Shown: piece after piece, positions 5,726 to 58,567 of the stretch
How positions within the stretch are numbered: the stretch's first letter is position 1
Layout of the letters: each line of letters begins with the position of its first letter
Assembly (NCBI RefSeq): GCF_003149185.1
Contig: NZ_QGDO01000001.1
Coordinates: 248,001 to 312,000, forward strand
Length of the DNA: 64,000 nt
DNA from: Sediminitomix flava
GTDB lineage: Bacteria; Bacteroidota; Bacteroidia; Cytophagales; Flammeovirgaceae
Direction: 5' to 3'
The notes under the pieces: generated by a model
The model's database searches: none
The model's input: the letters and a program-made list of their open reading frames with translations, nothing else
Told to the model about the DNA's origin: nothing
Position numbers and translations under genes: made by a program

Positions 5726-5741
5726 TAATAAAACAACTACT

Positions 5742-34616: not shown

Positions 34617-37507
34617 ATCAGCACAAGAAATTAAAATTTGAGACAGGTACTCCCCTGTTTACAACAGAGCTATTCAATAAGGTATTTGATGATTTTCTTG
34701 ATAAAGTCATTCTTGCTCTAATCGAGGAAAAGGAAGGAAAAAAGATAGGTGGAATCATTGAGGCAAAAGGCTATTTTGAAAAGAATGGAGTCCGTTACAT
34801 AGGATATGACCAACCTTATCATATCCATATCCTGCAAGGTATGATTCCCGCGATGTTTCTTCTGGAGCATACGTTTAAACACAATGGATGGATCAATACA
34901 GAAGAAGGAGAATTGTATTTGAAACTCTTTGTGTTGGGCTTCTTTTGCCACGATGCGAATAAACTGATGTCGTCCTTCAATAAGGACGGAGAAGACGAAA
35001 AGAGCCTAGAACAAGCCCTAAAAGAAATGAAAGGTGAAGAGTTTATAAGTTCTTTAGGGATGGGTGACTTCTTCCCTGAAACGTCTTCCTATTTGGAAGA
35101 TATTGAATACCTCGCCTTGATGGCGGAGCATCGAACGTCTATGATCTCATTTGGTAAAAGTACCAAACTTTCCCAAACTCAGCTATTAGATAAATTAGCT
35201 CCGTATGTGCGCATAGCGGATAGAATTGCTTCGGCAGGTGGTTCGGTTATTGAATATTGGAACGAGAAAAAACAAATTTGGGAGCAGAAAGACAGCAAAG
35301 GGCATGATGATCAATATCAGAATATTAGTACGCTCTATCAGTACATCAAAAAGGAAGTCGATACACTCGGAACAGATTTTCCTCCTTTGTCTTATGTCCG
35401 TATTCAGCAAAATCCTTTTAGCCTGCTTTCAGATCTGATTCTAAGACAAACAGCAAAGATCTTGGAAGCTGATGGCATACATACTTTCTCTTTTATGAGA
35501 GATGGCTTTTTATATTGGGGAGAAGCTTTGACAGCGAGTCAAATAGAATGTATTAGAGGAACTCTAACAAAAGCTACAGAGAAAGGGGTTGATGTTATAA
35601 AGTTGACAAAAGTAGATTCTCAATCCTGTAATTTCGGATTTATTGGTGATATCCCTTTCTCCAAAAAAGTTTGGGAAAAGCTAATCAAGACTAAGGCTGA
35701 TTCATTCTTACAGATTGCACCCAACGGTTTGGATAAGCTTTCTGATAAAGCAATGAAAGATCTTATTAGTTGTATTGAGCAGTTAACAGAGCTATATGAC
35801 TTACCTATACAACAACCCAAGCTTGATGATAAAGGGAAACTGTATTTACGCTTTTCTGAAGACTGGGATGAAGACGAAGAGACTTTTAAATTTGTCAATT
35901 TATTTTGTTTGGTTAAATCTCGATGGATGAATGCCAAGATAAATAAAGCTTGGGATACGGAATTCAAAGAAAAATTAATCTCAGGTACTACATTCTATGA
36001 GGAACATGCACTCATCTTCGAAGAAGCCGAGCAGAAGGTGATCACCTATTCAAGGTTAAATGCTCACTTTGGAGGATTGATTGACAGACCCGCCAATATT
36101 TTGAAAATGTTATTGGCCTTGGTTGAAGCGATTAAAGCCCTTGAAGATGATGAAGGAAACTGTTCTGAAGACTGGTTCACAGATCTAGTAGGTGTCTTAG
36201 ATAAGCCTTCTGAAAAAGTACAAAGCACGCCAATTATTGAAGTATTTGAACACTATTTTGATTACAATGGGAATTTGTTGAATCGAAATTGGATAGATCA
36301 AATTGCGTCAATTCCTACTTCAGACAAAATTTGTGTCTTTACGGGTAGGCCTGCTACTAAGCCTTATAAAGAAGTCAATGCTTATGGGTTAGGTGCAAGA
36401 GGTTTTACAAAAAGGAGTAATACGACATTAAAGAATACAATTTCCTACGTCTCTGATGTTGCTGATGCAGAAAACAAGGCACGAAAGAATTTCTCGGACC
36501 GAGTGAAAGCAAACTCAGCGATCTATATGGACTTCTGTGAATCTTTTGGTGGGACAGTCTTCGATTGGAATTTTTTCAAGGAAATCGCCAAGAAAAAAGG
36601 TTTTAAGAGTGAACTAAGCAAAACCAATAAAGAGGAAGTGATCATGCTCAATAAGTCTGCTCAACTCAATCAAAATAAGTTTGCTTATGAATTGACTGAG
36701 GTGGGACGAGATTTAAAGAGTCAGGTTTTCTTGGTGAGAAATCACCTTGAATTAGCTGTCAAAACAGGTCTGCGGACTTATATAACTTCGATTATGGGGG
36801 AGTATAGACCACATAAAGAAATCTTTGTCTATGAACAGGCTCCCGCCTTTATTCAAAACTTAGGGTGGAACCGAGTACACTTGGTACATGCTTCAGCCAT
36901 TTTCAAGGAGGTTGCAATGTGTTTAGAACTGTTTAAGCACGGAAAAAATTTGGATACGGGTCTGATGACTCATTATTCAAATGACCGAAATATCATTTTC
37001 CAAGCCTACTATCAATTTGTATCGGGAAATGAAAAATCCGCAAAATCCATAAAAGAGAAAATCAACAATTTTATAGAAGAAAATCCTTTAAAACTGAAGT
37101 ATATGAGTGTTGTATCAGAATTAGCAGAAATCGCCTTGAGAATCCGTACAGCTAACAAAAACTTTAACCAAGAAAGTGAGCTTTTCCGATTGGCATTGGA
37201 TACGATGAGGGAGGAATTGAGACATGAACAATCTAAAGAAGATGTGATTGAGCGTATCACTGGTGAACTCTTCAAAAAAGAAAGGTTGGAGTATATGGGC
37301 AAAGACAAGAAACAGGCTTGTTCAGATTTTGCAACAAAGATGTACGAAGGACTTTTAGAAAAAGAATGGAAAGGGCAATTCCCATCACAAAACCGTGAAC
37401 GTAGAATTTTGTATCAATTTGCTTATCTCTATAGTGTCAAGGTCGATAAACTAAGAGCCCAACGAGCAGAAGAGAAGAAGCATCAGAAAGTACAGGATGC
37501 GAACTAA
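34613..37507 (+). CDS. cas10d: Type I-D large subunit Cas10d (Csc3) with HD nuclease domain
   Basis: I start at the ATG overlapping the cas6 stop (ATGA); an earlier in-frame ATG at 34586 lies within cas6. It has 964 aa. The N-terminal HD domain carries His70/His72 (QPYHIHILQG), His113-Asp114 (FFCHDANKL), His173 (AEHRTSM) and Asp203 (RIADRIAS). In type I-D the nuclease sits here rather than on Cas3. The middle (from about 570, KICVFTGRPATKPYKE) is a Csc3-like body without a GGDD cyclase motif. The C-terminal 196 aa are all-helical and could be made separately as Cas11d from 36917. It is followed after 59 bp by csc2. Confidence 0.9.
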   Translation: MNQHKKLKFETGTPLFTTELFNKVFDDFLDKVILALIEEKEGKKIGGIIEAKGYFEKNGVRYIGYDQPYHIHILQGMIPAMFLLEHTFKHNGWINTEEGELYLKLFVLGFFCHDANKLMSSFNKDGEDEKSLEQALKEMKGEEFISSLGMGDFFPETSSYLEDIEYLALMAEHRTSMISFGKSTKLSQTQLLDKLAPYVRIADRIASAGGSVIEYWNEKKQIWEQKDSKGHDDQYQNISTLYQYIKKEVDTLGTDFPPLSYVRIQQNPFSLLSDLILRQTAKILEADGIHTFSFMRDGFLYWGEALTASQIECIRGTLTKATEKGVDVIKLTKVDSQSCNFGFIGDIPFSKKVWEKLIKTKADSFLQIAPNGLDKLSDKAMKDLISCIEQLTELYDLPIQQPKLDDKGKLYLRFSEDWDEDEETFKFVNLFCLVKSRWMNAKINKAWDTEFKEKLISGTTFYEEHALIFEEAEQKVITYSRLNAHFGGLIDRPANILKMLLALVEAIKALEDDEGNCSEDWFTDLVGVLDKPSEKVQSTPIIEVFEHYFDYNGNLLNRNWIDQIASIPTSDKICVFTGRPATKPYKEVNAYGLGARGFTKRSNTTLKNTISYVSDVADAENKARKNFSDRVKANSAIYMDFCESFGGTVFDWNFFKEIAKKKGFKSELSKTNKEEVIMLNKSAQLNQNKFAYELTEVGRDLKSQVFLVRNHLELAVKTGLRTYITSIMGEYRPHKEIFVYEQAPAFIQNLGWNRVHLVHASAIFKEVAMCLELFKHGKNLDTGLMTHYSNDRNIIFQAYYQFVSGNEKSAKSIKEKINNFIEENPLKLKYMSVVSELAEIALRIRTANKNFNQESELFRLALDTMREELRHEQSKEDVIERITGELFKKERLEYMGKDKKQACSDFATKMYEGLLEKEWKGQFPSQNRERRILYQFAYLYSVKVDKLRAQRAEEKKHQKVQDAN
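36905..36911 (+). promoter_or_regulatory. Internal Shine-Dalgarno within cas10d
   Basis: AAGGAGG lies 5 bases before an in-frame ATG (36917-36919). Strong Shine-Dalgarno sites are otherwise not seen before the cas genes here, which makes it stand out. Confidence 0.6.
36917..37507 (+). CDS. cas11d: Candidate Cas11d small subunit, internal start in cas10d
   Basis: In frame with cas10d (codon 769), an ATG preceded by AAGGAGG would give a 196-aa, mostly alpha-helical protein. It starts MCLELFKHGKNLDTGLMTHY and ends in a basic, coiled tail (KVDKLRAQRAEEKKHQKVQ). Internal translation of small subunits from the large-subunit gene has been shown experimentally for type I-D and other type I systems. 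The size and position fit that precedent. There is no separate small-subunit gene in the operon. The call is an inference from sequence; expression of the short product is unproven. Confidence 0.6.
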   Translation: MCLELFKHGKNLDTGLMTHYSNDRNIIFQAYYQFVSGNEKSAKSIKEKINNFIEENPLKLKYMSVVSELAEIALRIRTANKNFNQESELFRLALDTMREELRHEQSKEDVIERITGELFKKERLEYMGKDKKQACSDFATKMYEGLLEKEWKGQFPSQNRERRILYQFAYLYSVKVDKLRAQRAEEKKHQKVQDAN

Positions 37508-37566
37508 GTCTTTATCTGCATTAATATTCACATTCTTATTTTTTTAAAATTAAACATTCAGAAAAC

Positions 37567-38514
37567 ATGCAATCTATATTTGAAAATATTCCAGCTCAAT
37601 TATTCCGTACAAACCTAAAAGAGAACAAAACAGGTGTGTTCAAAATTGCTTTGGTCAGAGAAGTGACAGGCACTCTTATCAATCGAAGTAACTTTGCAGA
37701 TGAAACCATCACTTTTCGGACACAAGAAGGAAAAACATTGATAGAAATCCCTGCACGGAAATTAAAAGCGCCTGAAAAATTGACAGGTCTAAAGTTGTGT
37801 CGCCAAACAAACTCAGTAGATGAAGAAGTACGCTACAATGTCATAAAAGACAGTAAACAACTTGCAAACCCAAACTCTATTCTATTTGGAGATTCTGTAA
37901 CGGCTTCAGGTGATGCCGTCGGTATAAAATCTCGTGTAATTTATGATTGGACATATTCGATCCGTCCTTGTGATGATTTGGTAGATACTCTCCAACACAA
38001 TGCCCTTAGCGAAGGAGGAACCATGTATGATGAGGAAGAAGGTAAGCTCAGACAATCCTTGTTTAGGGTGCAATATATCATGCCTCAAACCTATTTCCCT
38101 CATTTTATTACAATCGAAAATGCAACACCCGAGCTATTGTTCCATTTACTCTCATCGATTGTCTTTACGCAAAGGTATGGTGCGCAAACAACAACTACAG
38201 GCAGTAATATCCGCAACCATATTGTAGCCTTAGGTTATGATGCCACAGAAGCTCCATTAAATAGTTTTACCTTTTCCAATGAGTGGAACCAAGAAGAGGC
38301 TGTCAACTTAGAGAATGTCAAAGAAAAGATGCTTTCGAAGATGCAAAGCTATTACGGCAAACAACTGATACAAGGTGAAGAATTGGAAAGCCAAATCAGA
38401 GGTGCATGGAAAGAAGATCTTACAGAAAAGTATCAAATGCTTCAAGCTAAGTGTGAGGAATATCTAAAAGAGATCAAGGTGATTTCAACAGCAAAAGGAA
38501 AGAAAGGCAAATAA
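37567..38514 (+). CDS. cas7: Type I-D backbone subunit Cas7 (Csc2)
   Basis: A 315-aa protein that would line the crRNA in several copies. Diagnostic Csc2 segments are present: NPNSILFGDSVTASGDAVGI, KSRVIYDWTYSIRPCDDLVD, GGTMYDEEEGKLRQSLFRVQ, MPQTYFPHFITIENATPELL, QRYGAQTTTTGSNIRNHIVA. These establish subtype I-D rather than I-A, I-B or III. It ends in a helical basic tail. It lies 17 bp upstream of csc1 and 59 bp after cas10d, within one operon. Confidence 0.95.
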   Translation: MQSIFENIPAQLFRTNLKENKTGVFKIALVREVTGTLINRSNFADETITFRTQEGKTLIEIPARKLKAPEKLTGLKLCRQTNSVDEEVRYNVIKDSKQLANPNSILFGDSVTASGDAVGIKSRVIYDWTYSIRPCDDLVDTLQHNALSEGGTMYDEEEGKLRQSLFRVQYIMPQTYFPHFITIENATPELLFHLLSSIVFTQRYGAQTTTTGSNIRNHIVALGYDATEAPLNSFTFSNEWNQEEAVNLENVKEKMLSKMQSYYGKQLIQGEELESQIRGAWKEDLTEKYQMLQAKCEEYLKEIKVISTAKGKKGK

Positions 38515-38531
38515 TATAAAGTCAGGATTTT

Positions 38532-39185
38532 ATGAAAATATATGCATTAAAACTGACACTCCTCAATCACCTGTTCTATTTCACGGAGTCTACCAATGGT
38601 TCCCGAACAGGTGATTTTATAGGTGATTTGGCACTAACTTATGCTTTCCGACCTTGGCTTGCTCCAACTGATGAAGCAATTCCATTTCGGGCTAAACCCG
38701 AATATGAAGAAATCGCAGATTGGGGATTTTACTGTACACTGGCGATACCGCAAAAAACGAAGCCAACAAATGTATACGCTCGGAATACGCTTTTCCATGC
38801 AGATGGCATGTATGATAAGCCTAGTTTTGAAAGTGCGGCTAAATCCCCTTTCAAAAGCTTTTTCCACGTACAGGGTATCCAAGCCACTTCAGAATTCCAT
38901 TGTTTCTTGATCGCAAAAGAGGAGGTTAAACTCCCCCCAACTATCCGAGTAGGCAATGGAAAGGAAACCTTGGTCAAGGTCGAAGAAATTGATAGGGATA
39001 AGCAATCATTTTGGCTTAATGCTTTTACCCACAAAAAAGTATTCAACAATCTGGAACAGGTCGCTGACTTGATGATTGACAAAGGCATACACGACAGGCA
39101 ATATGTTTTAGAAAACTATATCCTGTTGAAGGGTTTTGATCAATCCTATTTAGAGGAAGTTTTTGAGCCATTATTTAGTGCTTAG
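38532..39185 (+). CDS. cas5: Type I-D subunit Cas5 (Csc1)
   Basis: A 217-aa protein expected to bind the 5' tag of the crRNA. The RAMP fold start MKIYALKLTLLNHLFYFTES is followed by the Csc1-typical GDFIGDLALTYAF, then YARNTLFHADGMYDKPSFES and a beta-hairpin SFFHVQGIQATSEFHCFLIA. The first element is the Csc1 counterpart of the opening RAMP strand and the igNyALtYA segment. It lies 17 bp after cas7 and 65 bp before the cas3' ATG. Confidence 0.88.
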   Translation: MKIYALKLTLLNHLFYFTESTNGSRTGDFIGDLALTYAFRPWLAPTDEAIPFRAKPEYEEIADWGFYCTLAIPQKTKPTNVYARNTLFHADGMYDKPSFESAAKSPFKSFFHVQGIQATSEFHCFLIAKEEVKLPPTIRVGNGKETLVKVEEIDRDKQSFWLNAFTHKKVFNNLEQVADLMIDKGIHDRQYVLENYILLKGFDQSYLEEVFEPLFSA

Positions 39186-39250
39186 AGAAATTGAAGGGCT
39201 GTCATTTGGATTGCCCTTCTTCCAAGAATCTAAAAATTGGCAATAAAAAC

Positions 39251-41281
39251 ATGGAGCAATTTCAAATTACCATACCGCCTCAATATGTACAACAAGTACA
39301 ACAAACCGCCTTGTTCAAGCGTCCTGACTCCCCCGAATTTGAAGGGAGAATGCACGAGATACAGCGTGTTATGAGAGACGATTTTGACAAATTACCTCTT
39401 ATTACAGAAGTAATAGCCCCGACAGGAACAGGTAAATCCTATGCCTTTGCCTTTCCGACTCTGAAAGCCAAACAAGAAAGACAAGTACAAAGAAAAGCAC
39501 TGCTTGTATTGCCTACGAATGTTCTGATTGATGAGCTGTATGAGGCTTTTTCTGCGATGTTCACAGAACTCAAAATAGTCAAGGCGACAAAAGAAACTTT
39601 GGATAAGATGGAAGCTAAAGGAAGTTACAAACGTTGGCAGGCAATTAGTGAAATGGCAGAAACGGCAGATATCATGATTACTAACCCTGATATTCTCAAT
39701 TATGCTATGCTGGGGGGGTATGATAAGCATATCTTCAAGGACAGTAAACTATCAGGAGGAAATACTTATTGGCATTTCCTAAAGAATTTTCAGTATATCA
39801 TTTATGATGAATTTCACCTGTACCGTGAGGAACAGATCGCATCCATTTTCACAATGATTGAGTTGAGAGAATGTTTTATCAATGATTCGGCTCGATTCTT
39901 TTTTGTGACGGCAACCCCTGAAGAAGAAATTACACATTTTCTGACAGAGCGAAATTACCGTTACCAAAGTATCTCTGAATGCCTATCGTCTTCGCCAACA
40001 ATGGAAGCGAAGCTTCCTGCAGTCTTCACAAGATTGGAAGAAACCGTTACGCAATCTCCAGAAGAATCACGTTGTATTCATGGAGAATTGACCATAGAAT
40101 TTGTCTTGTCCGATTCTGTGGGAGAGGTTTTGACATATAAAGAAGAAGAGCTGAAAGCCCAGAAGGAACAAGATATCCGTTCCTTATTAATTCTAAACTC
40201 ATTGGTAGATATACAGCGTCTGTATTTTCAATATAAGCCTAGTTGGCAAAACACCCACAGGCTGAGCGAGGTTTCCGGTTATTTCGATGAGGGTTATCAG
40301 CAGGCGGACATTATTTTCTCGACTAGTAAATCAGAGGTCGGGGCAAACTTTGGGGTGGATTATACCATCATGCAATCGGGTTTTGATTACAGAAGTTTCT
40401 TGCAACGTTTTGGTAGAACGGCAAGAGGGGAGATGAAAGGGAAAATAGTCATCTTTTTCTTGAAACAGAGAGAAGAAAAAAAACAATTCAATAAGCTGAA
40501 AAAGCTCTTTTCAGTGCAAGAAGAATGGGGCTATAACTCCTTTACAAAGACCGTAAAGAGTGTACTTCAGAAACCTGAATTTTATACTAATAAGATCAGT
40601 CCGTTTATGGGGCAATATCTCTATGCGGTTTATCACAATGCGGGGCGCTATAATTATGATACTAGAGAGTATATCCGTAACCGTATTATTGAAATGGATA
40701 TGCCTGATATTCAAAGAGGGCAGTTCAAGTTTTTTCAAATTATAAATGCTTCTATTGTTCATCTAGGAAAGGGAGGGTATGCAAGACAATGGCAAGAATG
40801 GTGGGAAAAGTATCTTGATTCTTACCTCTCTTTTAGGGGATCAAGTCTTCATATTTCGATCAAAGATATGGAGCGAAACGGGCAAATCTTTAGCTATTCA
40901 AAAGAATGGGTCTTACGCAACAAAGCTATTACAGACATCTTGGAAGGACAGGCTCCTGATGGAAGGGACTTGTTTGTTGTAGAAGGTCTTAGGGAGAAAC
41001 AAGACAATGAGTTATTGTATGAATCTGATACGATTCCTTCAGTAGGAGCTATGCAGAATCGCTTCTTTGAAAGGAAACACAAAAGCAATCAACGAATGCG
41101 TAAACAATTATTTTTGGGAGCACTCAAAAATATCGAAAATGGAAATGAGGGTATCGATAGTTTCTATGACAAACAAGAAGAGTTATTGGAAAAACTAGAA
41201 GGTTTAGCTCCGTTTTTTACAGAAAAGAGGCTAAATATTATCGGAGTTCAAGGAAGTGATGGCCTCTCTGTTATTTTCTAG
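39251..41281 (+). CDS. cas3: Type I-D helicase Cas3' (no HD domain)
   Basis: I use the ATG at 39251 (MEQFQITIPPQYVQQVQQTA); the open frame extends upstream only with a non-ATG start. It has 676 aa. SF2 helicase motifs are complete: APTGTGKSY (Lys62), DEFH at 186-189 (IIYDEFHLYREEQ), TATPEEE, and QRFGRTARG (385-393). No HD motif is found at either end, consistent with type I-D, where the nuclease resides on Cas10d. It is the last cas gene; the array begins about 35 bp after its stop. No cas4, cas1 or cas2 follows. Confidence 0.92.
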   Translation: MEQFQITIPPQYVQQVQQTALFKRPDSPEFEGRMHEIQRVMRDDFDKLPLITEVIAPTGTGKSYAFAFPTLKAKQERQVQRKALLVLPTNVLIDELYEAFSAMFTELKIVKATKETLDKMEAKGSYKRWQAISEMAETADIMITNPDILNYAMLGGYDKHIFKDSKLSGGNTYWHFLKNFQYIIYDEFHLYREEQIASIFTMIELRECFINDSARFFFVTATPEEEITHFLTERNYRYQSISECLSSSPTMEAKLPAVFTRLEETVTQSPEESRCIHGELTIEFVLSDSVGEVLTYKEEELKAQKEQDIRSLLILNSLVDIQRLYFQYKPSWQNTHRLSEVSGYFDEGYQQADIIFSTSKSEVGANFGVDYTIMQSGFDYRSFLQRFGRTARGEMKGKIVIFFLKQREEKKQFNKLKKLFSVQEEWGYNSFTKTVKSVLQKPEFYTNKISPFMGQYLYAVYHNAGRYNYDTREYIRNRIIEMDMPDIQRGQFKFFQIINASIVHLGKGGYARQWQEWWEKYLDSYLSFRGSSLHISIKDMERNGQIFSYSKEWVLRNKAITDILEGQAPDGRDLFVVEGLREKQDNELLYESDTIPSVGAMQNRFFERKHKSNQRMRKQLFLGALKNIENGNEGIDSFYDKQEELLEKLEGLAPFFTEKRLNIIGVQGSDGLSVIF

Positions 41282-41316: not shown

Positions 41317-44298
41317 CTTATTTTTTTACCAGAATGGTGTTATGACCTTGACATCTATATGGAATCGGTACGCGAGAACTTATGTAATCTTTACCAGAAT
41401 GGTATTCTGACTTCTTATCCTTTTCCCCAAAGTCGTTGAATTTGTCATGTAATCTTTACCAGAATGGTATTCTGACGATACTTCCTTCCATGTGAAGTTT
41501 TGAAGTAACGGCATGTAATCTTTACCAGAATGGTATTCTGACGTACCTCTTGACCAGATGTTAGTGTTCTCCTTTGCATGTAATCTTTACCAGAATGGTA
41601 TTCTGACTGAATATATCAAAGAGAATGTAATCCTTGAAACTTGATGTAATCTTTACCAGAATGGTATTCTGACGTTGTAGACTCTACATAGTTCTCACTT
41701 TCTTCTGTAATGTAATCTTTACCAGAATGGTATTCTGACGATAATTGAATTGTCTTGCTGATCTGAAGTTTAAACATGTAATCTTTACCAGAATGGTATT
41801 CTGACTTGTTTATCAACCGTAAATCAAGAACCCCAATTGGATGTAATCTTTACCAGAATGGTATTCTGACTCACTAAACATGGATACAATAGAAATAGTA
41901 TCTAAGATGTAATCTTTACCAGAATGGTATTCTGACGAGCCTATGCTTGAGGAATATGGGTTTAGAACTCTTATGTAATCTTTACCAGAATGGTATTCTG
42001 ACTAATAAGCCCCTGAAGACCTGCAATAGATTCGCTATTATGTAATCTTTACCAGAATGGTATTCTGACATGATTGCCATTTCTTGTCATTCGCTTTTTA
42101 TGGAAATGTAATCTTTACCAGAATGGTATTCTGACAACGAAAGAGGGCTGTTTTGCTAGTAAGCCCTTTAGATGTAATCTTTACCAGAATGGTATTCTGA
42201 CCTGCCCTGCCTCATGAGTTGAACCTTGCGAGTGCTATGTAATCTTTACCAGAATGGTATTCTGACCCCTACGAATGAATACAATCTCATTACCCGAAAG
42301 ATATGTAATCTTTACCAGAATGGTATTCTGACGCGTTAATCCACGATGCATTTATATTAATTGCATTATGTAATCTTTACCAGAATGGTATTCTGACAGA
42401 GATCTAACACCGCTATAAAATCCTTTCCATCATGTAATCTTTACCAGAATGGTATTCTGACATAATTCGGAGTGGTAAAAAAGTATATTTAATTTGTGAT
42501 GTAATCTTTACCAGAATGGTATTCTGACGAATCTTTCCCCATATGTTTATCTAATTGCAGGTGAATGTAATCTTTACCAGAATGGTATTCTGAACCTTGA
42601 TCATCGACAGGCACTTGCCCGTTTGTAGAATGTAATCTTTACCAGAATGGTATTCTGACTTGCCTCCAACTGCCTTACAAGCTCCCTGCCCGAAATGTAA
42701 TCTTTACCAGAATGGTATTCTGACTTGTAAATTTGAAGCCTTACAATGTTGAAAAAAGCATGTAATCTTTACCAGAATGGTATTCTGACTGAAATCTAGT
42801 AATTTGAAAAGGTGCATCCTCGCTAATGTAATCTTTACCAGAATGGTATTCTGACGTTTATAACGGTGAGACGGATAATACTTCTACGGTATGTAATCTT
42901 TACCAGAATGGTATTCTGACAAAGCAGCTCCTAAAGCAGCAGTAAGAAGAAAGCAAATGTAATCTTTACCAGAATGGTATTCTGACTGTTCTGTCTCGAT
43001 AATGAGTGCGCAATGCTCTTCATGTAATCTTTACCAGAATGGTATTCTGACATGATTGCCATTTCTTGTCATTCGCTTTTTATGGAAATGTAATCTTTAC
43101 CAGAATGGTATTCTGACAACGAAAGAGGGCTGTTTTGCTAGTAAGCCCTTTAGATGTAATCTTTACCAGAATGGTATTCTGACGCTTCCATAAATGGCTC
43201 ATGTCCAATCCCCAATACGATGTAATCTTTACCAGAATGGTATTCTGACCTGATTAATGGAAGTGTAATACCTTTCATTAGTCTTATGTAATCTTTACCA
43301 GAATGGTATTCTGACTTAATTAAATTCTCATACGGTAATATATATAGAGGCATGTAATCTTTACCAGAATGGTATTCTGACTCGGGCATTTCCATGACAT
43401 CTAGTTTTGTCATGTATGTAATCTTTACCAGAATGGTATTCTGACTGTTATAACATGTCTGCGGCATCGTGGTGGGTTGGAATGTAATCTTTACCAGAAT
43501 GGTATTCTGACTATTGACTTTGCATTTTATCAATTTTGACATTTGCATGTAATCTTTACCAGAATGGTATTCTGACTTTGATATGTCTATTGTTCAAAGT
43601 GTGACATATAAAATGTAATCTTTACCAGAATGGTATTCTGACTATTTTATTTCTGCGACAAGTGGTTATGACGTTGTATGTAATCTTTACCAGAATGGTA
43701 TTCTGACTTGTGAAAAGACTTCAAATGTCCCCAGCGTTGATTGATGTAATCTTTACCAGAATGGTATTCTGACTGATGATATAACCAAGGCATGTTTTGA
43801 ATATTTGGAATGTAATCTTTACCAGAATGGTATTCTGACCTTATGAAAACTGCACTGTTGTTAGCTCTTCCTCTTATGTAATCTTTACCAGAATGGTATT
43901 CTGACACGGATAGTGAATGGGCACAGAAGTGGGGTAAGAAAATGTAATCTTTACCAGAATGGTATTCTGACTGGGAATAGATTTTCTTTTCCATTTCGTC
44001 GGCTTCTATGTAATCTTTACCAGAATGGTATTCTGACGTAGTAGACTCTACATAGTTCTCACTTTCTTCTGATGTAATCTTTACCAGAATGGTATTCTGA
44101 CCTTCTAAACCTTGCTATTTGGTCTATTTGGAAGTATATGTAATCTTTACCAGAATGGTATTTTGATTTTTAGGAATGATGACCGACTAAAATAAGTTGA
44201 CCATGTAATTTTGACCAGTATGATATTATGACTTGCCCAACTCAGATAAATTGCCAATACTAAAGACAATGTAACTTTACTAAGTTCTACATAATATT
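41317..44298 (+). CRISPR. Type I-D CRISPR array: 43 good 30-bp repeats plus 3 decayed ones
   Basis: Forty-three repeats (41382-44167), all but two of them identical as far as I read them, alternate with 42 spacers of 34-37 bp. The 30-bp unit starts ATGTAATC, has a hairpin TACCAGAATGGTA in the middle, and ends ATTCTGAC. The exceptions are a last-base change in the copy before 42596 and three changes in the 44138 copy. Degenerate repeats flank it at 41317 on the left and at 44203 and 44269 on the right. On the plus strand the hairpin leaves an 8-base ATTCTGAC tag before each spacer, like the usual ATTGAAAC. I therefore infer left-to-right transcription, same as cas. Only 35 bp separate cas3' from the first decayed repeat, so a leader is short or absent. 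Confidence 0.97.
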
Positions 44299-45100: not shown

Positions 45101-45190
45101 TGTCGTCTATTGTCATTTATTGTCACTTAATGTCGTCTATTGTCGTCTATTGTCATTTATTGTCACTTAATGTCGTCTATTGTCGATAAC
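45101..45190. repeat. Iteron-like array of nine phased decamers
   Basis: Eight complete decamers and one partial follow each other without gaps. The types are A = TGTCGTCTAT, B = TGTCATTTAT, C = TGTCACTTAA, in the order A B C A A B C A, then TGTCGATAAC. TGTC recurs every 10 bp, about one helical turn, and the 40-bp block 45101-45140 is duplicated exactly at 45141-45180. Directly repeated, helically phased sites are the form of replication-initiator iterons or cooperative operators. Confidence 0.85.
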
Positions 45191-49293: not shown

Positions 49294-52200
49294 CTATTTT
49301 TTGTTGTGTTCGTTCAACAGCGCCAACACACAATCTTCATTTTTTTCAAAATCGTTGCATGGTAGGTAAGCACTGATCCATTTTCGATAGGTTTCAGTGA
49401 TAGGTTTTTTCTTTTTTTCAAAAGTTTTTTGCAATTCCTTCACTCTTTTTTCAAAATCATTCTGATTTATGTAACCGCCAACGAGGTTTTCTCGAAGGTC
49501 TGACAATGCCACATTGTGTTCCTTATGCAGACTACTCAACTCAAAGCTGAACTCTGTCAAAATCTTTCTACCGTTTTGACGCATAAGTATCTTGTCTTCC
49601 CCAACCGTGTCTTTTATAGATTCAAGTATTTCGCTCAATACCAGCCTTAGTTCGGGGCGAAATCTCAATTGTGCCATCCCTTCAAAAACTAGTTCCTTGA
49701 CGATCTTACCCCCCATACGCTCTGTAGTATCACTGCTTCGCATAATACGCCCAATTATCTGTTTTAACATCCCTGCCTTCGCCTTATGAGGGTGTTGAAT
49801 CCCCTTTTCAAGACATCCCACAAGGCTTTCCGTGAGGTCTGAGATGTTTAATGTGAGAGTGAGTGTCTCATTGTAATTCCTGCCCACGAGTGCGGTACTT
49901 GAGTTAATATAGGTCAGCAAATTACCCGAATGATTAACATCTTCAATTACACTTTCTGCTGTAATCAATTTATCAGATACATCTGAAAGGATATAGCCAT
50001 TGAACCCATCGACTTTTTCAATCATGTGCTTTCGTGCGCATATAAACAGCGTGTCATTGCACTCTGTTGACTTTTGACAAATATTCTTGGGTGCAAGTAG
50101 TGTTCGGTGATCTCCTGTCTCTTTGAAGTTGATCAGTAGCTGATCTATGGAGGTTACCTTTGTTTCCAGCCGTGTGATCTCTCGATCAGGTACAGGCGTT
50201 GCACTTAATCGGGTGCTTTTGTCGAAAAGCGTGCTATCCTTTTTGAGAGCGATATGCCATAACCCATTCCCCTTCTCAATTGATCGTTGAAGTTGTCCTC
50301 TTTTGAATTCTTGAGTTTCTTCGTCCAATACAGGCTTATTATAGTAGAAAGGCTTAAAAAATAGCACTTTCCCTGCCGAGATGTGATTATAAAGGATTTC
50401 ATAAAACTCCTCGTATAAAGCGTCTTCGCTCCCCATACTTTGAAGATAGGCTTGCTTGAACTTTTCATAGCCTTCATGTCTCCATGTGGCAGAGTACACA
50501 TCCAGCATTTGTGTGTCGTTGGTCATACCCTGCCATGCTTCGGCAGGGGTGAGTTCGATACACTCGTCGAACAGGTATTTTCTGTCAAGTCTGTCATTGA
50601 ATTTTGTAAGCACTTCGGGTTTGAAGGTGTCACGGGTTTGATCTCGGTACGAGAAACTTTGAAAGCAGAAAGACAATTGCTCTGTAAAGTGACATTTCAC
50701 CTCCTCTTGCTCTTCGTCTTCGTTGCTTTCACCTTCTGATGACGGTATTGTATGTGTAAGCTTTGCGTATTCGGCATCCGTAATAGCTGAAAGCCTTTTG
50801 AAATCATCAGATTTGCATATCGAGAAGGTGTTGTGCAGTTTATTGAATTCATACGCATGTTCGAGCTGTACAACCTCATAGCGGTTGAAGAGGTGCTCTT
50901 CGTCCACAATTGAGTGTTCAATTATTGATTGAAAGGCATTCAGCCTAGACACATACTTCGGTAGAAAAGACTCCGATAAGTAGGCATGCGTAGTGATCAC
51001 TAGCTTTGCATTTTCAAGCATGCTGATGTCTGAAGTTGCCATGAACTTGATAACACCGAGTTCAGCCATGGTACTTTGTACCGATTTTGGGTCAATCTTC
51101 ACTTGATACTCTGAGGATAAGGCATCTATACTCGCACGAATCATGTCTTTGTAGACCGAATGTATTGTCTCTTTCGAATGAACAAACAATACAGAGACTT
51201 CACCTCGTAAAGCCCATTCCAGTAAAGCACTACCTGAAGCATACGTTTTACCTGAGCCTGTTGGTGCTTCAAGCGTTGTGTCAGGCTGTATCTGTCTTTT
51301 GATCTCAAGCGTTTTGTTTGCATACACCTGTAGGGCAGACTTTGCTAGTGCCTGCTTTACTTGCAAAACTATTTGTTGTACTTGAAGATAAGTCTCCTCA
51401 GAGATTCTGTGTACGATATCAGAAGAGTAGCCATCACCTGTTTCTGTATGGAAGTGCATTTTGAAGTATTCGTATTCACCTAGGACAGATACTTTACCCT
51501 TGTCAAGAATTTGTTTTGCCGTGTGCTTTTTACTGTATACCCTGCCACTTAACATATCTACAGTTTCTGTACCATCGTCAAGAATGAGATAAAGGCGTTG
51601 CGTTTCGGTATTGTGTGACCACTTCAACCCCTTGAGGTCTGCGCCTACTAATAGACTTCCTATCTTAGTTCCTGCATCACTATTAGTCGTTTTTACGCTA
51701 CTTGGACAGGTAGAGTCAAGCGGTGTAAAGGTGAAATATGGGGAAAGCTTTTTGATGTTGGGCTTGGTCAATTTCAGTACTTTTTTCTGTACCGTATTAT
51801 AACCACTGAGGCAGAGCACTCCTTGAGCAGGGAGTTCTGTAATAGAAAGTGTTTGCCTAACATCCTCTGACATATCTTCTTCTATTTCCTTGACCTCAAT
51901 ATGATAAGGTGAAGGCATTGTTGCTAAAACCCTCATGCGTCCCTTTGCTCTGTTTTCTTCACTGTATACGTGAAAATGCTTTTCAAAGAGTTTTCGTAGG
52001 TCTTTTGGAAGATCGTCAGGATGGGTACAGTCAAAATCTAACCAGACGGATTTTCCTTCTTCTACAGGTAGTGAATAACCATACATGCTTCTGTTCGACT
52101 CGTACGTCTCATGTATTTCATCGATTCCGTATCCCATCCCTTTTAAATTGTATATTTTCTTCTGCTGACCGCCAGAATAATTCGCAATGAGTTCTAGTGG

Positions 52201-54240
52201 GAACTCTGTCGACGTGATGATATTTGCATCAACAAGCTCTTGATAAGGTGTGAGGTTCTTGTAGTCAAAATTAAGAGGTTTCTGGGTATCAAATAGTCTG
52301 TTAAGCACCTTTGCATTCAAAAACGTTTCTGCCTTAGCAAGTGTATCATCTGCTGTATGAGTCGCATTGATATTCTGCGACTTGTTGCTGTACTTAAACT
52401 TTCTTCCACTCCCTTGTGAGAGAGTTGGATAAGTTCCCGAATATGTCCAGAGCCCTGCCTTTGAGCTTAACAACAGCTCTAACTCTTCTGATGAAAGTTG
52501 AATATTCTCACGAATCAACTCTAAGACAGGGGCAGGGAATTGTGAGCGATAAGGGTCTTTTGTTTGCCAAATGCCCTTCGCTTTAATGCGTTTATCATCC
52601 CCCACGGATTCCACAGCAAAGTAATTGTTGACATTGATCACATGCATCATCTCATACTCTGTAATCTCAAGAGGTATACTGTACGCCTTCCCAGCCTCGG
52701 ATGTGAATTTCTCAAAGTCTAGTGCTCCTCGCTTACACATGATTGTAATACCATCAGTGTTCGTCTGTAGAAGCTTCATTTCCCCTTCCAGCAAACTGTT
52801 GACATAGTAGATAAGAGCCGTAATGAAATATTGTCCCGTTAAGCAGGTCATCAAGTTACCTTTAGGCACACACAGTGACGAATATTCAGCATTCGTCAAA
52901 CCAAACAAGCTGTTGATGACGATCTTTTTGAGTTGAGCTTGCTGTGCCCATTTCTCTTCCTCTTCAATATTGCCCGCCTTTTTCGCTTGTTTAGCTTTCG
53001 CCTTAGCATCTAGTCGATCTGCAATCAACTGCTTGAGTATATCCGTAGAGAAATGAGACGTTTTGCCAAATACCATCGGTATAAAATTGGCTATCAGTAA
53101 AGGGTAAAATGAACCAAAGTCGATATCAACGATCTGCCATTCATCGTCACTCACAAACAAGCCCTTCTCTTCAGCATGTAAACCTCCTCGCTTGAACTTG
53201 TGCTCAACCCCCTTGATCGAGTAAAGAAATTCGTCCGATTTGCCTGTGCTGAATTTCATTTTAGCTTCCATGCTTTGAACGATACTTTCGGCAGTGCTCC
53301 CCTCGAAGAAAGCTTTTAGGTCGGCAGAGATAAGGTCTGTACCAGGAACTTTTATGTCCGTTATAGAGTAACTACCAACCTTTACTCCAACAGCGTTCGC
53401 CTCGGTGGGAAAGAGCTTATTAATTACAGAGTTAATCGATAGCAGGGTACTGAGTTGATATGACTTCCCTTGATCGAGAAGCAATTGTTCGTGTCCTTGC
53501 AACTTCGGCAGGGTATACTTCTTGAACATTTCAACAGTTACCAAGACATCCTTCTTCAAGTAATCAAGCAGAGTTGTGCGCTCATCTTCCGTCTCTACGT
53601 CCTTGTCAAACGCAGGAATGTCGATATAGCCCTGCCCGATACTATCAGCAAAGTGTTTAAGGGTTGCAAAAGTACCCGAATTGTCCATCATGCGTTTGCC
53701 CTCCCCAGAGGCTTCTATTGCATGCGAACATATTTTCTTGAAGACATGAAGAGCTGTTTTTTCAGTTTGTAGGTACTTCAGTAACCTAGCTAGTTGCTGT
53801 GCTTTAGGTTGAGTCATGTTGGCACAAAAGCCAAATTCACGTTTGAGGCGGTAGCGTGTACCTGTTTTAGTTCGAGTCTGTTCAAAAAAGGTAGACAGGT
53901 CTGAAAGGTTGCACTCAAACTCCTTGAATGCCTCTGGGTTGAGCTGAAAGTCATTGATGAATTCCCCCGTCAATGTCTTACCTTGCTTGTAGTGAACGTA
54001 ATTGATCATTAAGGTCGTGACATCAACAATTACATTATGCCCGACTAGAAAAGGCATGGTGTCAAGGCTTGCAAGATATTCTACCCACTGACCAATCTGA
54101 ATAGCACCTTCAAAGGTTTTGTAGTCACCAGAGCTAAATTGATAGGCTCCTGCAATATTGATGTTTTTATAGAATTCAGAGTCGAAGACAATCGCTTCGA
54201 TCTTCGTAGCGGATTGTAGTTTTGTAATGTTATGTTTCAT
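49294..54240 (-). CDS. Giant fusion: family-B DNA polymerase with proofreading exonuclease plus SF2 helicase
   Basis: I prefer the ATG at 54238-54240 (MKHNITKLQSATKIEAIVFD), giving 1,648 aa; a non-ATG start lies 15 codons upstream. Numbering here includes those 15 residues. The 3'-5' exonuclease motifs are Asp35/Glu37 (VFDSEFYK), Asn84-Asp88 (VGHNVIVDV) and Tyr242-Asp246 (DYLKKDV). Polymerase motif A is Asp389 (DIDFGSFYPLL), B is Lys454/Asn458 (KIVINSLFGLT), and C is QTNTDGITI (Asp511; its first Asp is Asn509). Residues 742-792 have a DxD-containing strand (VWLDFDCTH), of uncertain nature. The SF2 helicase has Lys1013 (APTGSGKTYA), DEEH 1128-1131, LSATP and QIIGRIMR (1509-1516). It is probably the replicase of the island. 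Its DNA is more GC-rich than its neighbours'. Confidence 0.88.
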   Translation of the reverse strand: MKHNITKLQSATKIEAIVFDSEFYKNINIAGAYQFSSGDYKTFEGAIQIGQWVEYLASLDTMPFLVGHNVIVDVTTLMINYVHYKQGKTLTGEFINDFQLNPEAFKEFECNLSDLSTFFEQTRTKTGTRYRLKREFGFCANMTQPKAQQLARLLKYLQTEKTALHVFKKICSHAIEASGEGKRMMDNSGTFATLKHFADSIGQGYIDIPAFDKDVETEDERTTLLDYLKKDVLVTVEMFKKYTLPKLQGHEQLLLDQGKSYQLSTLLSINSVINKLFPTEANAVGVKVGSYSITDIKVPGTDLISADLKAFFEGSTAESIVQSMEAKMKFSTGKSDEFLYSIKGVEHKFKRGGLHAEEKGLFVSDDEWQIVDIDFGSFYPLLIANFIPMVFGKTSHFSTDILKQLIADRLDAKAKAKQAKKAGNIEEEEKWAQQAQLKKIVINSLFGLTNAEYSSLCVPKGNLMTCLTGQYFITALIYYVNSLLEGEMKLLQTNTDGITIMCKRGALDFEKFTSEAGKAYSIPLEITEYEMMHVINVNNYFAVESVGDDKRIKAKGIWQTKDPYRSQFPAPVLELIRENIQLSSEELELLLSSKAGLWTYSGTYPTLSQGSGRKFKYSNKSQNINATHTADDTLAKAETFLNAKVLNRLFDTQKPLNFDYKNLTPYQELVDANIITSTEFPLELIANYSGGQQKKIYNLKGMGYGIDEIHETYESNRSMYGYSLPVEEGKSVWLDFDCTHPDDLPKDLRKLFEKHFHVYSEENRAKGRMRVLATMPSPYHIEVKEIEEDMSEDVRQTLSITELPAQGVLCLSGYNTVQKKVLKLTKPNIKKLSPYFTFTPLDSTCPSSVKTTNSDAGTKIGSLLVGADLKGLKWSHNTETQRLYLILDDGTETVDMLSGRVYSKKHTAKQILDKGKVSVLGEYEYFKMHFHTETGDGYSSDIVHRISEETYLQVQQIVLQVKQALAKSALQVYANKTLEIKRQIQPDTTLEAPTGSGKTYASGSALLEWALRGEVSVLFVHSKETIHSVYKDMIRASIDALSSEYQVKIDPKSVQSTMAELGVIKFMATSDISMLENAKLVITTHAYLSESFLPKYVSRLNAFQSIIEHSIVDEEHLFNRYEVVQLEHAYEFNKLHNTFSICKSDDFKRLSAITDAEYAKLTHTIPSSEGESNEDEEQEEVKCHFTEQLSFCFQSFSYRDQTRDTFKPEVLTKFNDRLDRKYLFDECIELTPAEAWQGMTNDTQMLDVYSATWRHEGYEKFKQAYLQSMGSEDALYEEFYEILYNHISAGKVLFFKPFYYNKPVLDEETQEFKRGQLQRSIEKGNGLWHIALKKDSTLFDKSTRLSATPVPDREITRLETKVTSIDQLLINFKETGDHRTLLAPKNICQKSTECNDTLFICARKHMIEKVDGFNGYILSDVSDKLITAESVIEDVNHSGNLLTYINSSTALVGRNYNETLTLTLNISDLTESLVGCLEKGIQHPHKAKAGMLKQIIGRIMRSSDTTERMGGKIVKELVFEGMAQLRFRPELRLVLSEILESIKDTVGEDKILMRQNGRKILTEFSFELSSLHKEHNVALSDLRENLVGGYINQNDFEKRVKELQKTFEKKKKPITETYRKWISAYLPCNDFEKNEDCVLALLNEHNKK

Positions 54241-54640: not shown

Positions 54641-55903
54641 ATGGCTATTTCAATTTACTTTCAACTAGGCAAAAAAGAGGATAAAAAAGGGAAGGATTAT
54701 GTTTGTATGACAGTATACAAAGGTAGAGGTAAGCAATTCTCTTGTGCAACAGGTTATAAAATACATCCAAAAAATTGGGATGCAGAAAATCAAATTGCAA
54801 GACGTAGAGCAGAAGATGCACGAGTCATTAACTCGCACCTCGATCTTCGAAAAGATGATATTGAGGATATTTATATAAAAGAACTCGAAGCAAATTTGAT
54901 TGACTGGGATACCTTCAAGGCAAAAGCAAAATTTATTGCTCACAAGAAGAATAAGGGGAAAGTGTTTAACTTAAGCTCTACCCAAATCAAAAGTAAACAA
55001 GACTTCTTTCAAGTATGTGAAGCCTTCCTTGACATCAAAGGTAAGATATATTCCCGAAACACTATAAAAGGATATGAAGACCTTTTTTCAAAACTAAAAG
55101 AGTTTGAAGCAGAGAAAGAAACCAATATTATCTTCTCACAAATCACCTTACCTTGGTTTGATCAGGTTATTAACTTTCTCATAGATAGTCAACTCATGAA
55201 TTCATCTATTAACAACCATCTCAAGAACTTGAAAGCGTTTTTGAATTGGGCATCCGATAGAGGCTATTACCAAAAAAGATTTGACTTTACTAAGATCGGA
55301 AAGCTTCCTGAATCAGAGGGAGATACAATAGCTCTAAATAAAAAAGAGCTATTGAGACTGTATGAAATAGACCTTTCTGCTTTCCCTCACTTAGAGCCGG
55401 TTAGAGATGTGTTTTGCTTTTTATGCTTTACACTGCAACGTTACCAGTCATATAAAGACTATTCTCCCGATCAGATAATGAATAACGGGACTACTTGGGC
55501 TGCACAATGTGGGAAAGTATACGGTATTGCCTACGTCCCTTTAAATCTGTTTGATCACAGGGCTAAACACATTCTTGAAAAATACAATTATACTCTTCCA
55601 GAATATGCCGATGGATACTTGAACAAAGAGATCAAGAAAATATGTGAGATGGCAGGGATCAATGAAAAGGTTTTTGTCTCTAAGCGAATAGGAAATAGGG
55701 AAATAGGCATCTATAAATACAAATATGAAGTCATTTCATGCCATAGTGCACGTCGAACAGGAGTATCGTTAGCATCAGAGTTTTTGACACTTCCACAAAT
55801 TCAGAAAATCACTAAACATAAAAGCTTGAAAACATTACAAAAGTATATCAATATTGACCGTGAAAGTCTAAAAAATCACTGCACAAGAGTCACCTTATAT
55901 TAA
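54641..55903 (+). CDS. Second tyrosine recombinase/integrase (Bacteroidota type)
   Basis: A 420-aa paralogue of the integrase at 31210 with the same three-part layout: arm-binding domain, SAM-like core-binding domain (FFQVCEAFLDIKGKIYSRNT), catalytic domain. Catalytic residues are kept: Arg in FTLQRYQSYK, His and Arg in CHSARRTGVSL, His in TKHKSLKTL, and Tyr in QKYINID. It is clearly diverged from the first copy, so this is not a recent duplication. It may work with the first, or belong to an older element merged into the island. A terminator follows 7 bp after the stop. Confidence 0.94.
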   Translation: MAISIYFQLGKKEDKKGKDYVCMTVYKGRGKQFSCATGYKIHPKNWDAENQIARRRAEDARVINSHLDLRKDDIEDIYIKELEANLIDWDTFKAKAKFIAHKKNKGKVFNLSSTQIKSKQDFFQVCEAFLDIKGKIYSRNTIKGYEDLFSKLKEFEAEKETNIIFSQITLPWFDQVINFLIDSQLMNSSINNHLKNLKAFLNWASDRGYYQKRFDFTKIGKLPESEGDTIALNKKELLRLYEIDLSAFPHLEPVRDVFCFLCFTLQRYQSYKDYSPDQIMNNGTTWAAQCGKVYGIAYVPLNLFDHRAKHILEKYNYTLPEYADGYLNKEIKKICEMAGINEKVFVSKRIGNREIGIYKYKYEVISCHSARRTGVSLASEFLTLPQIQKITKHKSLKTLQKYINIDRESLKNHCTRVTLY

Positions 55904-55990: not shown

Positions 55991-56017
55991 CATACTGTAT
56001 CAACTTAAAACAGTATG
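55991..56017 (+). promoter_or_regulatory. Inverted repeat covering the start codon of the multi-HTH gene
   Basis: The perfect 8-bp arms CATACTGT and ACAGTATG are 11 bases apart; the right arm contains the ATG (56015-56017). This could be an autoregulatory operator or an mRNA hairpin hiding the start. Confidence 0.55.
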
Positions 56018-57079
56018 AAAGAGATAAAAACCTCTGAGACAAACCAAATAAATCTAGTACCTAACAAACTCATTACTGGAAGTGAGCTGTGCTCCATTTT
56101 GGGGATTAGTATGCCGACTCTGAAATCATGGCGAGACAAAAGGCTTGTCAAAGCTATCCAAAGAGGAGACTATTACTATTTCAACAAAGAGAATACTCTT
56201 GATGCAATTCTCGGTAAGAAACGACGAAAAGAGTGTCAGCAATATGTTGACAAAGACACAATTGCAGAGCGACTCAAACTACCTCCTCATAGAGTGAAAT
56301 ACTACAGTAATAAAGGGCTTATTCCTATGTATACTTTTGAGCGCTCTCGGTTCTATGACCTGAATGAAGTTCTTAAACACTTGTTTCCTTCAAGGGTAGG
56401 AGAAGCTATCACAGTTCTTAACGAGAAAGAATTGTATGAATTGCTGGGTGTACAACGCAATACAGTAATCAAATGGAGAAAAGAGGGAGTCATCAAAGCG
56501 ACTTCTCTAGGTGCTGCCCATCTCTATGTAAAAGAAGATATCTGTGAGAGTGTCTTTAGAGATCAGCGCCCTTATCCTTGTAGTCGATTGTACAAAATCA
56601 AAGACATACAACTACTGCTTGGACTGTCACAAATGTCTATATACCGACGCATGAACAAGGACGAAATCCCAAGCCATCGCTTTCAAGGCAAGGATTACTT
56701 CGATTTGTCAGAGGTGTTTAAGGCTGTTACAGGAGAAGATCAAATCTTCGAAATCACTTCTGAAAAGCAAATACTTGACAAAGGTGAAGTAACTAAGCAA
56801 GAGCTTAAAGCAGCTGTCAATGATCAAAGAATCCGAGTTTATACATTCACAGGAGTGAGATTTTATTCTACAGAAGAACTTAAGGCTTACTTAGAAGAAC
56901 TTAATAAGAATAAGAAATGGCTTGGCATTGATGAGCTGTTTTCGATAGTACCAGACCTTTCTGAAACAAAGCTAAACTCGTATATCGAGGCAGGGACTAT
57001 CCGAGCATATACCCATAAAGAGACTATTGTGTTCAAGAGATCTGATATAAAAGTCTTGACCTCGAGTCAGGTCGCTTGA
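56015..57079 (+). CDS. Protein of about six tandem excisionase-like winged-helix modules
   Basis: A 354-aa protein built almost entirely of repeated HTH_17/MerR-like modules of about 45-55 residues. Module 1 has TGSELCSILGISMPTLKSWR and module 2 DKDTIAERLKLPPHRVKYYS. Module 3 has NEKELYELLGVQRNTVIKWR and module 4 KIKDIQLLLGLSQMSIYRRM. A shorter, degenerate module 5 has VTKQELKAAVNDQRIRVYTF, and module 6 has GIDELFSIVPDLSETKLNSY. Each module ends in a wing with aromatic residues (YYYF, FYDL, YFDL, FYST). Excisionases usually have one such module, so this may be a multivalent architectural protein that shapes att or origin DNA. It lies downstream of the second integrase. Confidence 0.8.
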   Translation: MKEIKTSETNQINLVPNKLITGSELCSILGISMPTLKSWRDKRLVKAIQRGDYYYFNKENTLDAILGKKRRKECQQYVDKDTIAERLKLPPHRVKYYSNKGLIPMYTFERSRFYDLNEVLKHLFPSRVGEAITVLNEKELYELLGVQRNTVIKWRKEGVIKATSLGAAHLYVKEDICESVFRDQRPYPCSRLYKIKDIQLLLGLSQMSIYRRMNKDEIPSHRFQGKDYFDLSEVFKAVTGEDQIFEITSEKQILDKGEVTKQELKAAVNDQRIRVYTFTGVRFYSTEELKAYLEELNKNKKWLGIDELFSIVPDLSETKLNSYIEAGTIRAYTHKETIVFKRSDIKVLTSSQVA

Positions 57080-57131: not shown

Positions 57132-57977
57132 TTATTTGTCTCCGTTCTTCCAAAGTACCTTAAGAGTTCGTCCACCTTCATCTTTCCACTCTGTCCATCC
57201 AGACGCCACAACCCCAAGAACAGTTTCAGCAGCTGAAGACGGTGTGGGAAACAGGTGATCTTTCTCAAAAACGTATATTCCTTCTTTACGTATCATAACC
57301 CCTGTTTCCAAGAGTTTTTCTCTTAGCAGAACGATAGAATGATAGAGGCATGGCTTTATTTCAATACTTGCTTCAGATCCACGTAGTACAACAAAGCCTT
57401 CACTGGTGTATTCACCTGTTGCTTTAATTCCTTTCCTATTGATATAAAGGAGCTTGCTATCGATTTCGATAAGGGGCTTGAAAAGGTTATAGCCAGACTC
57501 CTCCATGACAAGCCTAATGATCTCAAAGCTCTCCAACAAACTTGCCTCCAAGCTTTCAGGTACCATAGGTTTGGGAGGTGTGACAGAGTTGTAAACTTTA
57601 TACCTGCCAATAGTCTTTGCGACCATATAAGAATGATTTTCAAGGTATTTTGTAGCTGTAGACAAAAGTTGTCCTTCTGTGCTGGAAGAAATGACTAGAG
57701 CATGGCTCCATTCAAACTTTGCACTATTTTCATGCCGTTGGAGTCGTTCAAAGGCATTACCTGCCTCTCCTATATAGACAGATGGTTCTAGGGTTTTCTC
57801 ATCGTTACCAAACAAGAAGTAAAGACATGCCCGTTTTAAATCAATTCTGTCTTTGTACTTTTCGATAAGGTTACGAGGTAGTCCTACTGCTCTGATAATA
57901 GAGTTGCTAACAGTCTTGATGACTACAGAGCTTTCCTCTGTATTGGGAATAAAAGTTGTAATTGTTTTGCCGTACAT
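57132..57977 (-). CDS. GIY-YIG nuclease-like protein with DUF4357 domain
   Basis: A 281-aa protein. The GIY-YIG domain (about 45-130) has ACLYFLFGNDEKTLEPSVYI and GEAGNAFERLQRHE, with the catalytic Arg and Glu region, though the first motif is LYF rather than GIY. The C-terminal DUF4357 domain (about 225-281) reads TPSSAAETVLGVVASGWTEW and KDEGGRTLK. This combination occurs in stand-alone proteins encoded on mobile or defence loci and is thought to bind or cut DNA. It is the last gene before the right att site, as is often the case for island-edge cargo. Confidence 0.85.
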   Translation of the reverse strand: MYGKTITTFIPNTEESSVVIKTVSNSIIRAVGLPRNLIEKYKDRIDLKRACLYFLFGNDEKTLEPSVYIGEAGNAFERLQRHENSAKFEWSHALVISSSTEGQLLSTATKYLENHSYMVAKTIGRYKVYNSVTPPKPMVPESLEASLLESFEIIRLVMEESGYNLFKPLIEIDSKLLYINRKGIKATGEYTSEGFVVLRGSEASIEIKPCLYHSIVLLREKLLETGVMIRKEGIYVFEKDHLFPTPSSAAETVLGVVASGWTEWKDEGGRTLKVLWKNGDK

Positions 57978-58099: not shown

Positions 58100-58218
58100 T
58101 GCTAATTTTAGGACGTTTTCATCGAAGATTTCATCGAAAAACTGACTTTAGATAACAAAAAAAGCCCCAAATCGCCATTTTAGAGGCATTTTGGAGCTAA
58201 GTGGTACTCGGGGCGGGA
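58100..58218. repeat. attR: right copy of the imperfect 119-bp direct repeat
   Basis: The core 58169-58218 is identical to 30932-30981. It covers the tRNA terminator arm and loop, the CCA end, the acceptor strand and part of the T arm of tRNA-Leu. The preceding 69 bp are partly conserved with the left copy, including TGCTAATTT and the TCATCGAA sites at 58119 and 58131. Confidence 0.9.
58160..58198 (-). terminator. Terminator of the tRNA-Leu cluster
   Basis: On the minus strand AGCTCCAAA pairs with TTTGGGGCT (one G-U pair), with an inner GCC/GGC stem, then seven T. It lies mostly inside the att repeat, so the integration event duplicated the terminator as well. Confidence 0.8.
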
Positions 58219-58288
58219 ATCGAACCCGCACGGTATTGCTACCACTGGATTTTGAATCCAGCGCGTCTACCAGTTCCGCCACCCGAGC
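58202..58288 (-). tRNA. tRNA-Leu (CAA), copy 1, att-containing
   Basis: A class II tRNA with a long variable arm. The anticodon loop is TTCAAAA (anticodon CAA) on stem CTGGA/TCCAG. The acceptor GCTCGGG pairs with CCCGAGT. The T loop is GTTCGATTCC. CCA is encoded in the DNA, unlike copy 2. Its 3' end (to 58218) is the island att core. Confidence 0.95.
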
Positions 58289-58330
58289 AAGGTGATAATA
58301 TGGCTTTAAAGTAACTTTAGAGTTGTTTTG

Positions 58331-58414: not shown

Positions 58415-58445
58415 AAAAATCTCTAATGTAATCAATAAAGGGTTG

Positions 58446-58529: not shown

Positions 58530-58567
58530 ATTTGCAAAGACCGTTTGTCTTTACTTTTTTAAGGTAG

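Follow-up and report, generated by a model that had tools for sequence, protein, structure and literature searches.

The window analysed here is a 64-kb stretch of one contig from the genome of Sediminitomix flava. It contains an element of 27.2 kb flanked by two copies of a 62-bp direct repeat, which are 98% identical (one mismatch), and within this element a single gene predicted to encode an exonuclease, a family-B DNA polymerase (PolB) and an SF2 helicase on one polypeptide. The main features are as follows.

30920..30981, + strand: attL, the left copy of the direct repeat, 98% identical to 58157-58218
31210..32469, + strand: tyrosine recombinase 1, adjoining attL (Pfam Phage_int_SAM_5 and Phage_integrase)
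32704..33612, + strand: WYL regulator of the CRISPR-associated type (PADLOC WYL, 1.1e-12)
33816..41281, + strand: type I-D effector genes cas6, large HD-containing subunit, csc2, csc1 and cas3'
41368..44201, + strand: CRISPR array, ~44 repeats of 30 bp each
45101..45185, no strand: tandem 10-bp repeats TGTCNNNTAT, 8.5 copies, possible iterons
49294..54240, - strand: gene for the fused replicase (1648 aa), made up of exonuclease-PolB, middle region, SF2 helicase and C-terminal tail
54641..55903, + strand: tyrosine recombinase 2, divergent from the replicase gene, 44% identity to recombinase 1
56015..57079, + strand: repeated MerR/excisionase-type HTH protein (HTH_17 1.6e-26; excise 4.1e-9)
57132..57977, - strand: DUF4357 protein, matching the PADLOC candidate defence family PDC-S14
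58157..58218, + strand: attR, the right copy of the repeat, overlapping the 3' end of tRNA-Leu(caa)
58202..58288, - strand: tRNA-Leu(caa), the integration target, nearest of four tandem copies

The tRNA, repeat and Pfam matches show that the tRNA-Leu island with two tyrosine recombinases described in an initial annotation of this DNA is real. Similarity between the att repeats reaches ~119 bp at 86%. We found no third full copy of the 62-bp repeat in the genome, and thus one single 27.2-kb element is the simplest view. The repeats suggest that this element is mobile, and the protein with several HTH motifs is a candidate excision factor or regulator. All four tandem tRNA-Leu genes (58202-58651) have the anticodon CAA.

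The replicase gene reads as one coding sequence and not as two genes wrongly merged. From the ATG at 54240 there are 1648 open codons with no interruption; a TTG start upstream would give 1663. (Residues are counted here from the ATG, 15 fewer than in the initial annotation.) We draw the conclusion of a single coding sequence because the GC content by codon position is uniform along the full length of the gene, including across the domain joins, and because the remaining two minus-strand frames contain 89 and 136 stops. With one continuous frame and steady composition, there is no sign that a sequence error has affected the junction of the polymerase and helicase halves, a concern raised earlier. 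Downstream of the gene is ~1.5 kb without a long open frame (47742-49293), with inverted repeats near 49154-49292. The parts of the protein are encoded as follows.

49735..51294, - strand: SF2 helicase, residues ~983-1502 (APTGSGKT, DEEH, SAT, QIIGRIMR)
51295..52440, - strand: middle region, residues ~601-982 (~380 residues), no detectable homologue
52441..54195, - strand: 3'-5' exonuclease and family-B polymerase, residues ~16-600, assigned from PHROG 1252, a structural model, PDB matches and a motif alignment
52747..52773, - strand: polymerase motif C, LLQTNTDGI, residues 490-498, its NTDG common to the phage PolBs compared

Every motif that had been listed for the exonuclease, the polymerase and the helicase is found in this single frame. 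The exonuclease has ExoI (D20-S-E22), ExoII (GHN 67-69 and D73) and ExoIII (YLKKD 227-231), followed in order by polymerase motifs A (D374-FGSFYP), B (K439-IVINSLFG) and C (Q492-TNTDGI), with VNNY at 537-540. The helicase motifs are Walker A (992-999), DEEH (1113-1116), SAT (1346-1348) and QIIGRIMR (1494-1501), which is the SF2 order of Walker A, DExH, SAT and QxxGRxxR. The claim that an exonuclease, a PolB and an SF2 helicase share one polypeptide in the tRNA-Leu island is thus upheld. To judge from the profile scores (PHROG 1252, 2.7e-44; Pfam DEAD, 2.4e-6), the domain matches are not due to chance.

The polymerase half is of the type found in phages. The PHROG 1252 match (phage DNA polymerase, profile search) covers residues 214-561. 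A tblastn search of 50,697 phage records gave 650 matching records, each covering only part of the replicase; the best aligned over residues 184-569 at ~25% identity. When aligned with PolBs from phages, plasmids and cells, the replicase retains ExoI-III and motifs A, B and C, and has VNNY in place of KxY. A model of the polymerase built from 32 sequences has a pLDDT of ~90 over residues 340-560 (palm and fingers) and lower values elsewhere. Its best PDB matches by Foldseek and VIA-align are B-family polymerases, with VIA-align Z of ~14-17 over ~400 residues but an rmsd of ~8-10, and its top matches among viral structures are phage DNA polymerases. The model thus supports a B-family polymerase fold for the N-terminal half. 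The replicase is on a very long branch (2.66) in a tree of 52 polymerases, and its deeper placement is therefore tentative; such a branch would fit rapid evolution and, equally, decay.

Motif C had been singled out because Asn replaces the first Asp. The Asn is present, but it is not an oddity of this protein. NTDG is found at motif C in all six phage and plasmid relatives that were retrieved independently of the motif C sequence (MZH0603, FtMidnight, phiTHAF39, R7M, PWc and Megaera), and the Asn is therefore a property of the clade. Viral contigs retrieved by the pattern QTNTDGI also agree on NTDG, but they are biased by construction.

The helicase half is recognised by one profile and by its motifs. 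Residues 986-1121 match Pfam DEAD above its curated cut-off and ResIII at 8e-4. Motifs II and III are ~230 residues apart, and a second, C-terminal RecA domain is putative, assigned by motifs. The C-terminal part of the replicase has no tblastn match in phage or plasmid records.

The middle region may be primase-like. It carries WLDFD at 733-737, followed by YSEENRAKGRMRV at 759-771, and these resemble the first two motifs of archaeo-eukaryotic primases. The DxD strand that had been reported in this part of the protein exists (D735-F-D737). LPAQG near residue 803 is the place for a possible third primase motif; an acidic residue is not evident there. No useful match to the middle region was found in Pfam, PHROGs, phage and plasmid records or the sampled genomes; tblastn against the phage and plasmid records gave nothing better than matches at E 2-3 to proteins of phages, of which some carry a tail protein annotation. 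A single-sequence model has a pLDDT of 33. Shallow hhalign comparisons with a few primase domains found nothing, and did not link those primases to each other either, so that the positive control failed. A weak resemblance to small phage proteins with WIGFDCxHxxDL (PHROG 14011, 0.084) was rejected because the match is too short.

We found no protein with the same architecture in the 50,697 phage records, in 72,556 plasmid records or in the sampled genomes of the same phylum. In the phage and plasmid records, tblastn matches were confined to the polymerase core. Searches with the whole protein or parts of it in 97 relatives, and then in 395 genomes of the phylum and 390 of the order, returned only the replicase itself or short weak matches, as did the C-terminal part in 345 genomes of the class and the middle part in 335 of the phylum (these samples overlap one another). 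There is no related replicase at the other integrase loci of this genome. Scans of viral and genome contigs with peptide patterns, which require near-exact words and are thus insensitive beyond close relatives, found no fusion. A helicase of the type III restriction type from a genome scan with IVDEEH was discarded, as the match was weak and misregistered. The best 80 viral PolB relatives in a profile scan have at most 860 aa, and the PolB of one viral contig from the pattern scan (L096) has 1229 aa. The evidence that the fusion is absent is good for phages and plasmids, moderate for the host phylum and weak elsewhere, since the sensitive searches were of the phage and plasmid records and of sampled genomes from a single phylum.

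The initial annotation knew of no described family with this order of domains, and within the searchable literature that holds. It also allowed that the polymerase might group with an ordinary phage replicase already described as a fusion. The first part of this is the case, since the polymerase half is a member of an ordinary family of phage enzymes. However, no member of that family that we have seen carries an SF2 helicase fusion, and the objection therefore applies only in part. The fusion is real and intact, and so far it is an orphan. Single-chain replicases are already known; what is new here is an exonuclease-PolB followed by an SF2 helicase.

Several known elements resemble the one described here in part. 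Pipolins, whose hallmark is a primer-independent PolB (PMC7385651), are integrative elements as well, with a PolB, tyrosine recombinases and att repeats at a tRNA gene (PMC7385651), and the element shares the tRNA-associated direct att repeats and the tyrosine recombinases with them. In contrast to pipolins, its PolB belongs with the RNA-primed phage enzymes and is fused to a helicase. A link to pipolins had been suggested. However, the polymerase clusters with RNA-primed phage PolBs in both sequence and fold. Its motifs A and B are separated by 65 residues, compared to 134 in phi29, so that the phi29-type insertion between these motifs is missing. The nearest profile and structures and the spacing in phi29, rather than piPolB sequences themselves, thus argue against a pipolin PolB, and we consider this identity unlikely.

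Other single-chain enzymes differ in order or in helicase. In HelPrimPolB proteins, PolB is preceded by an SF3 helicase and a PrimPol (PMC7544198), and helicase, primase, polymerase and exonuclease activities have been shown for one of them, GP55 of Lactococcus phage 1706 (PMC12205980). Like the replicase, this group, typified by GP55, has large single chains (1317 aa) with a helicase, an exonuclease-proficient PolB and an extra module between them. Their order is helicase-primase-PolB with an SF3 helicase, whereas here it is PolB-middle-SF2, with the helicase C-terminal. Motif C is KTDS in HelPrimPolB and NTDG in the replicase, and HelPrimPolB occurs in phages, whereas the replicase is in an integrative island. 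The tree of 52 polymerases unites the three HelPrimPolB members in a clade (support 100/100) that excludes the replicase. In Tlr1 and transpovirons a PolB is followed by a helicase, with no exonuclease, and in OmPLV an SF1 helicase precedes pPolB (PMC12721341). Tlr1 and transpovirons thus share the polymerase-then-helicase order of the replicase. However, the helicase of Tlr1 and OmPLV is SF1, and the PolBs of all three are of the protein-primed type and from eukaryotic elements.

Among phages, the stand-alone PolBs of PHROG 1252 (Vibrio phage MZH0603, FtMidnight, R7M and others) share the Exo and Pol motifs, NTDG and a VNNY-like motif with the replicase. They differ in usually having ~570-860 aa, in having no SF2 helicase fusion and in their ~20-26% identity to the replicase. 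Two viral contigs (L096 at 5064-8747 and L081 at 4694-6841) encode phage PolBs that are apparently a separate PolB-primase fusion. These have an NTDG PolB with an extra module on the C-terminal side, which we read as primase-like from its motifs. They lack a helicase, and the module (FECDD, SGSKSYH) has no detectable similarity to the middle region of the replicase. An exonuclease-PolB followed by an SF2 helicase is found in none of HelPrimPolB, Tlr1, transpovirons, OmPLV and the two viral contigs.

We think it probable, though well short of certain, that the replicase is an independently assembled enzyme that copies the 27.2-kb integrative element after excision. The recombinases, probably aided by the excisionase-like HTH protein, would cut the element out between the att repeats. 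The C-terminal SF2 helicase would open the DNA, and the N-terminal PolB would extend a primer and proofread. The primers could be made by the middle region, acting as a divergent primase, or supplied by host DnaG. The fusion may have arisen by the joining of two neighbouring replication genes. This origin is plausible because the closest PolBs are phage replicases and because a separate SF1/SF2 helicase gene is near the polymerase gene in some relatives (MZH0603 and phiTHAF39).

Support for a replicase of the element comes from the complete Exo/Pol and helicase motifs, the predicted PolB fold and the position of the gene, which the att repeats enclose together with the recombinase genes and an excisionase-like gene. 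It also comes from the lack of any other recognisable polymerase, primase or replicative helicase among the genes of the element, where the sole further helicase is Cas3'. By analogy, GP55 indicates that a one-chain replicase of another domain order can work (PMC12205980). Against it are the absence of a homologue of the whole fusion, the lack of close relatives of the middle region and helicase, and the long branch of the polymerase. We also found no SSB gene and no recognisable origin in the element. The repeats at 45101-45185, a unit TGTCGTCTAT with variants that is exact on a 40-bp period, could be an origin; nothing connects them with the replicase.

A more ambitious version, which we regard as doubtful, is that the middle region works as a primase that has diverged strongly. 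The protein would then be a self-sufficient exonuclease-polymerase-primase-helicase chain, built independently of HelPrimPolB (in the opposite order and with a helicase of another superfamily), and would found a class of CRISPR-Cas-carrying integrative elements able to replicate themselves.

Two other functions are each unlikely in our estimation. One is that the protein serves the island in repair or defence, unwinding and resynthesising DNA after damage or phage attack in the manner of Pol theta end joining. Pol theta is a known polymerase-helicase repair fusion (PMC6764996), and the element does hold defence genes (type I-D CRISPR-Cas and PDC-S14), but the replicase gene adjoins the recombinases and not the CRISPR genes. 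In addition, the nearest polymerases are phage replicases, and the sole PADLOC match of the replicase is to the generic Walker region of a DinG helicase (0.0014). The other, to which we give a similarly low probability, is that the gene is the remnant of a captured prophage or satellite replication module, now decaying or silent. A phage-type PolB on a very long branch, in an element with no recognised capsid or packaging genes, is what a remnant might look like. However, every catalytic motif is preserved, and neither a stop nor a frameshift interrupts the 4.9-kb frame, whose codon-position composition is steady. Finally, the fusion comes from one genome with no homologue to confirm the join, but an assembly chimera or mispredicted junction of two separate genes is very improbable given a continuous frame within the 64-kb stretch of one contig, steady composition across the joins and matching att repeats on either side.

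Single-chain replicases are rare, and are of interest for DNA amplification and for how a replisome can be reduced to a single enzyme. Should it prove active, the replicase would be a second, independently built bacterial solution, with an SF2 helicase placed after the polymerase. The element would then be an integrative, CRISPR-carrying element with its own replication machinery, and self-copying of excised islands would be directly testable.

The CRISPR-Cas locus of the element has the type I-D genes cas6, csc2, csc1 and cas3', recognised by the NCBIfam profiles TIGR01877, TIGR03157, TIGR03159 and TIGR03158, with Cas6 under its curated cut-off. The large HD-containing subunit is probably cas10d, as indicated by its context and HD motif. 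We found no cas1 in the genome, which is 99.4% complete, and therefore no recognised local machinery for spacer acquisition; the adaptation module is optional for type I-D effector function. The spacers have no convincing target. Between the array and the replicase gene, 46569-47144 encodes a small protein with CxxC pairs that looks HNH-like by eye and has a weak match to PtuB of Septu (0.002). There is internal duplication within the array itself: a stretch of 162 bp recurs exactly 982 bp away (42040-42201 and 43022-43183) and 44008-44071 is 98% identical to 41644-41707.
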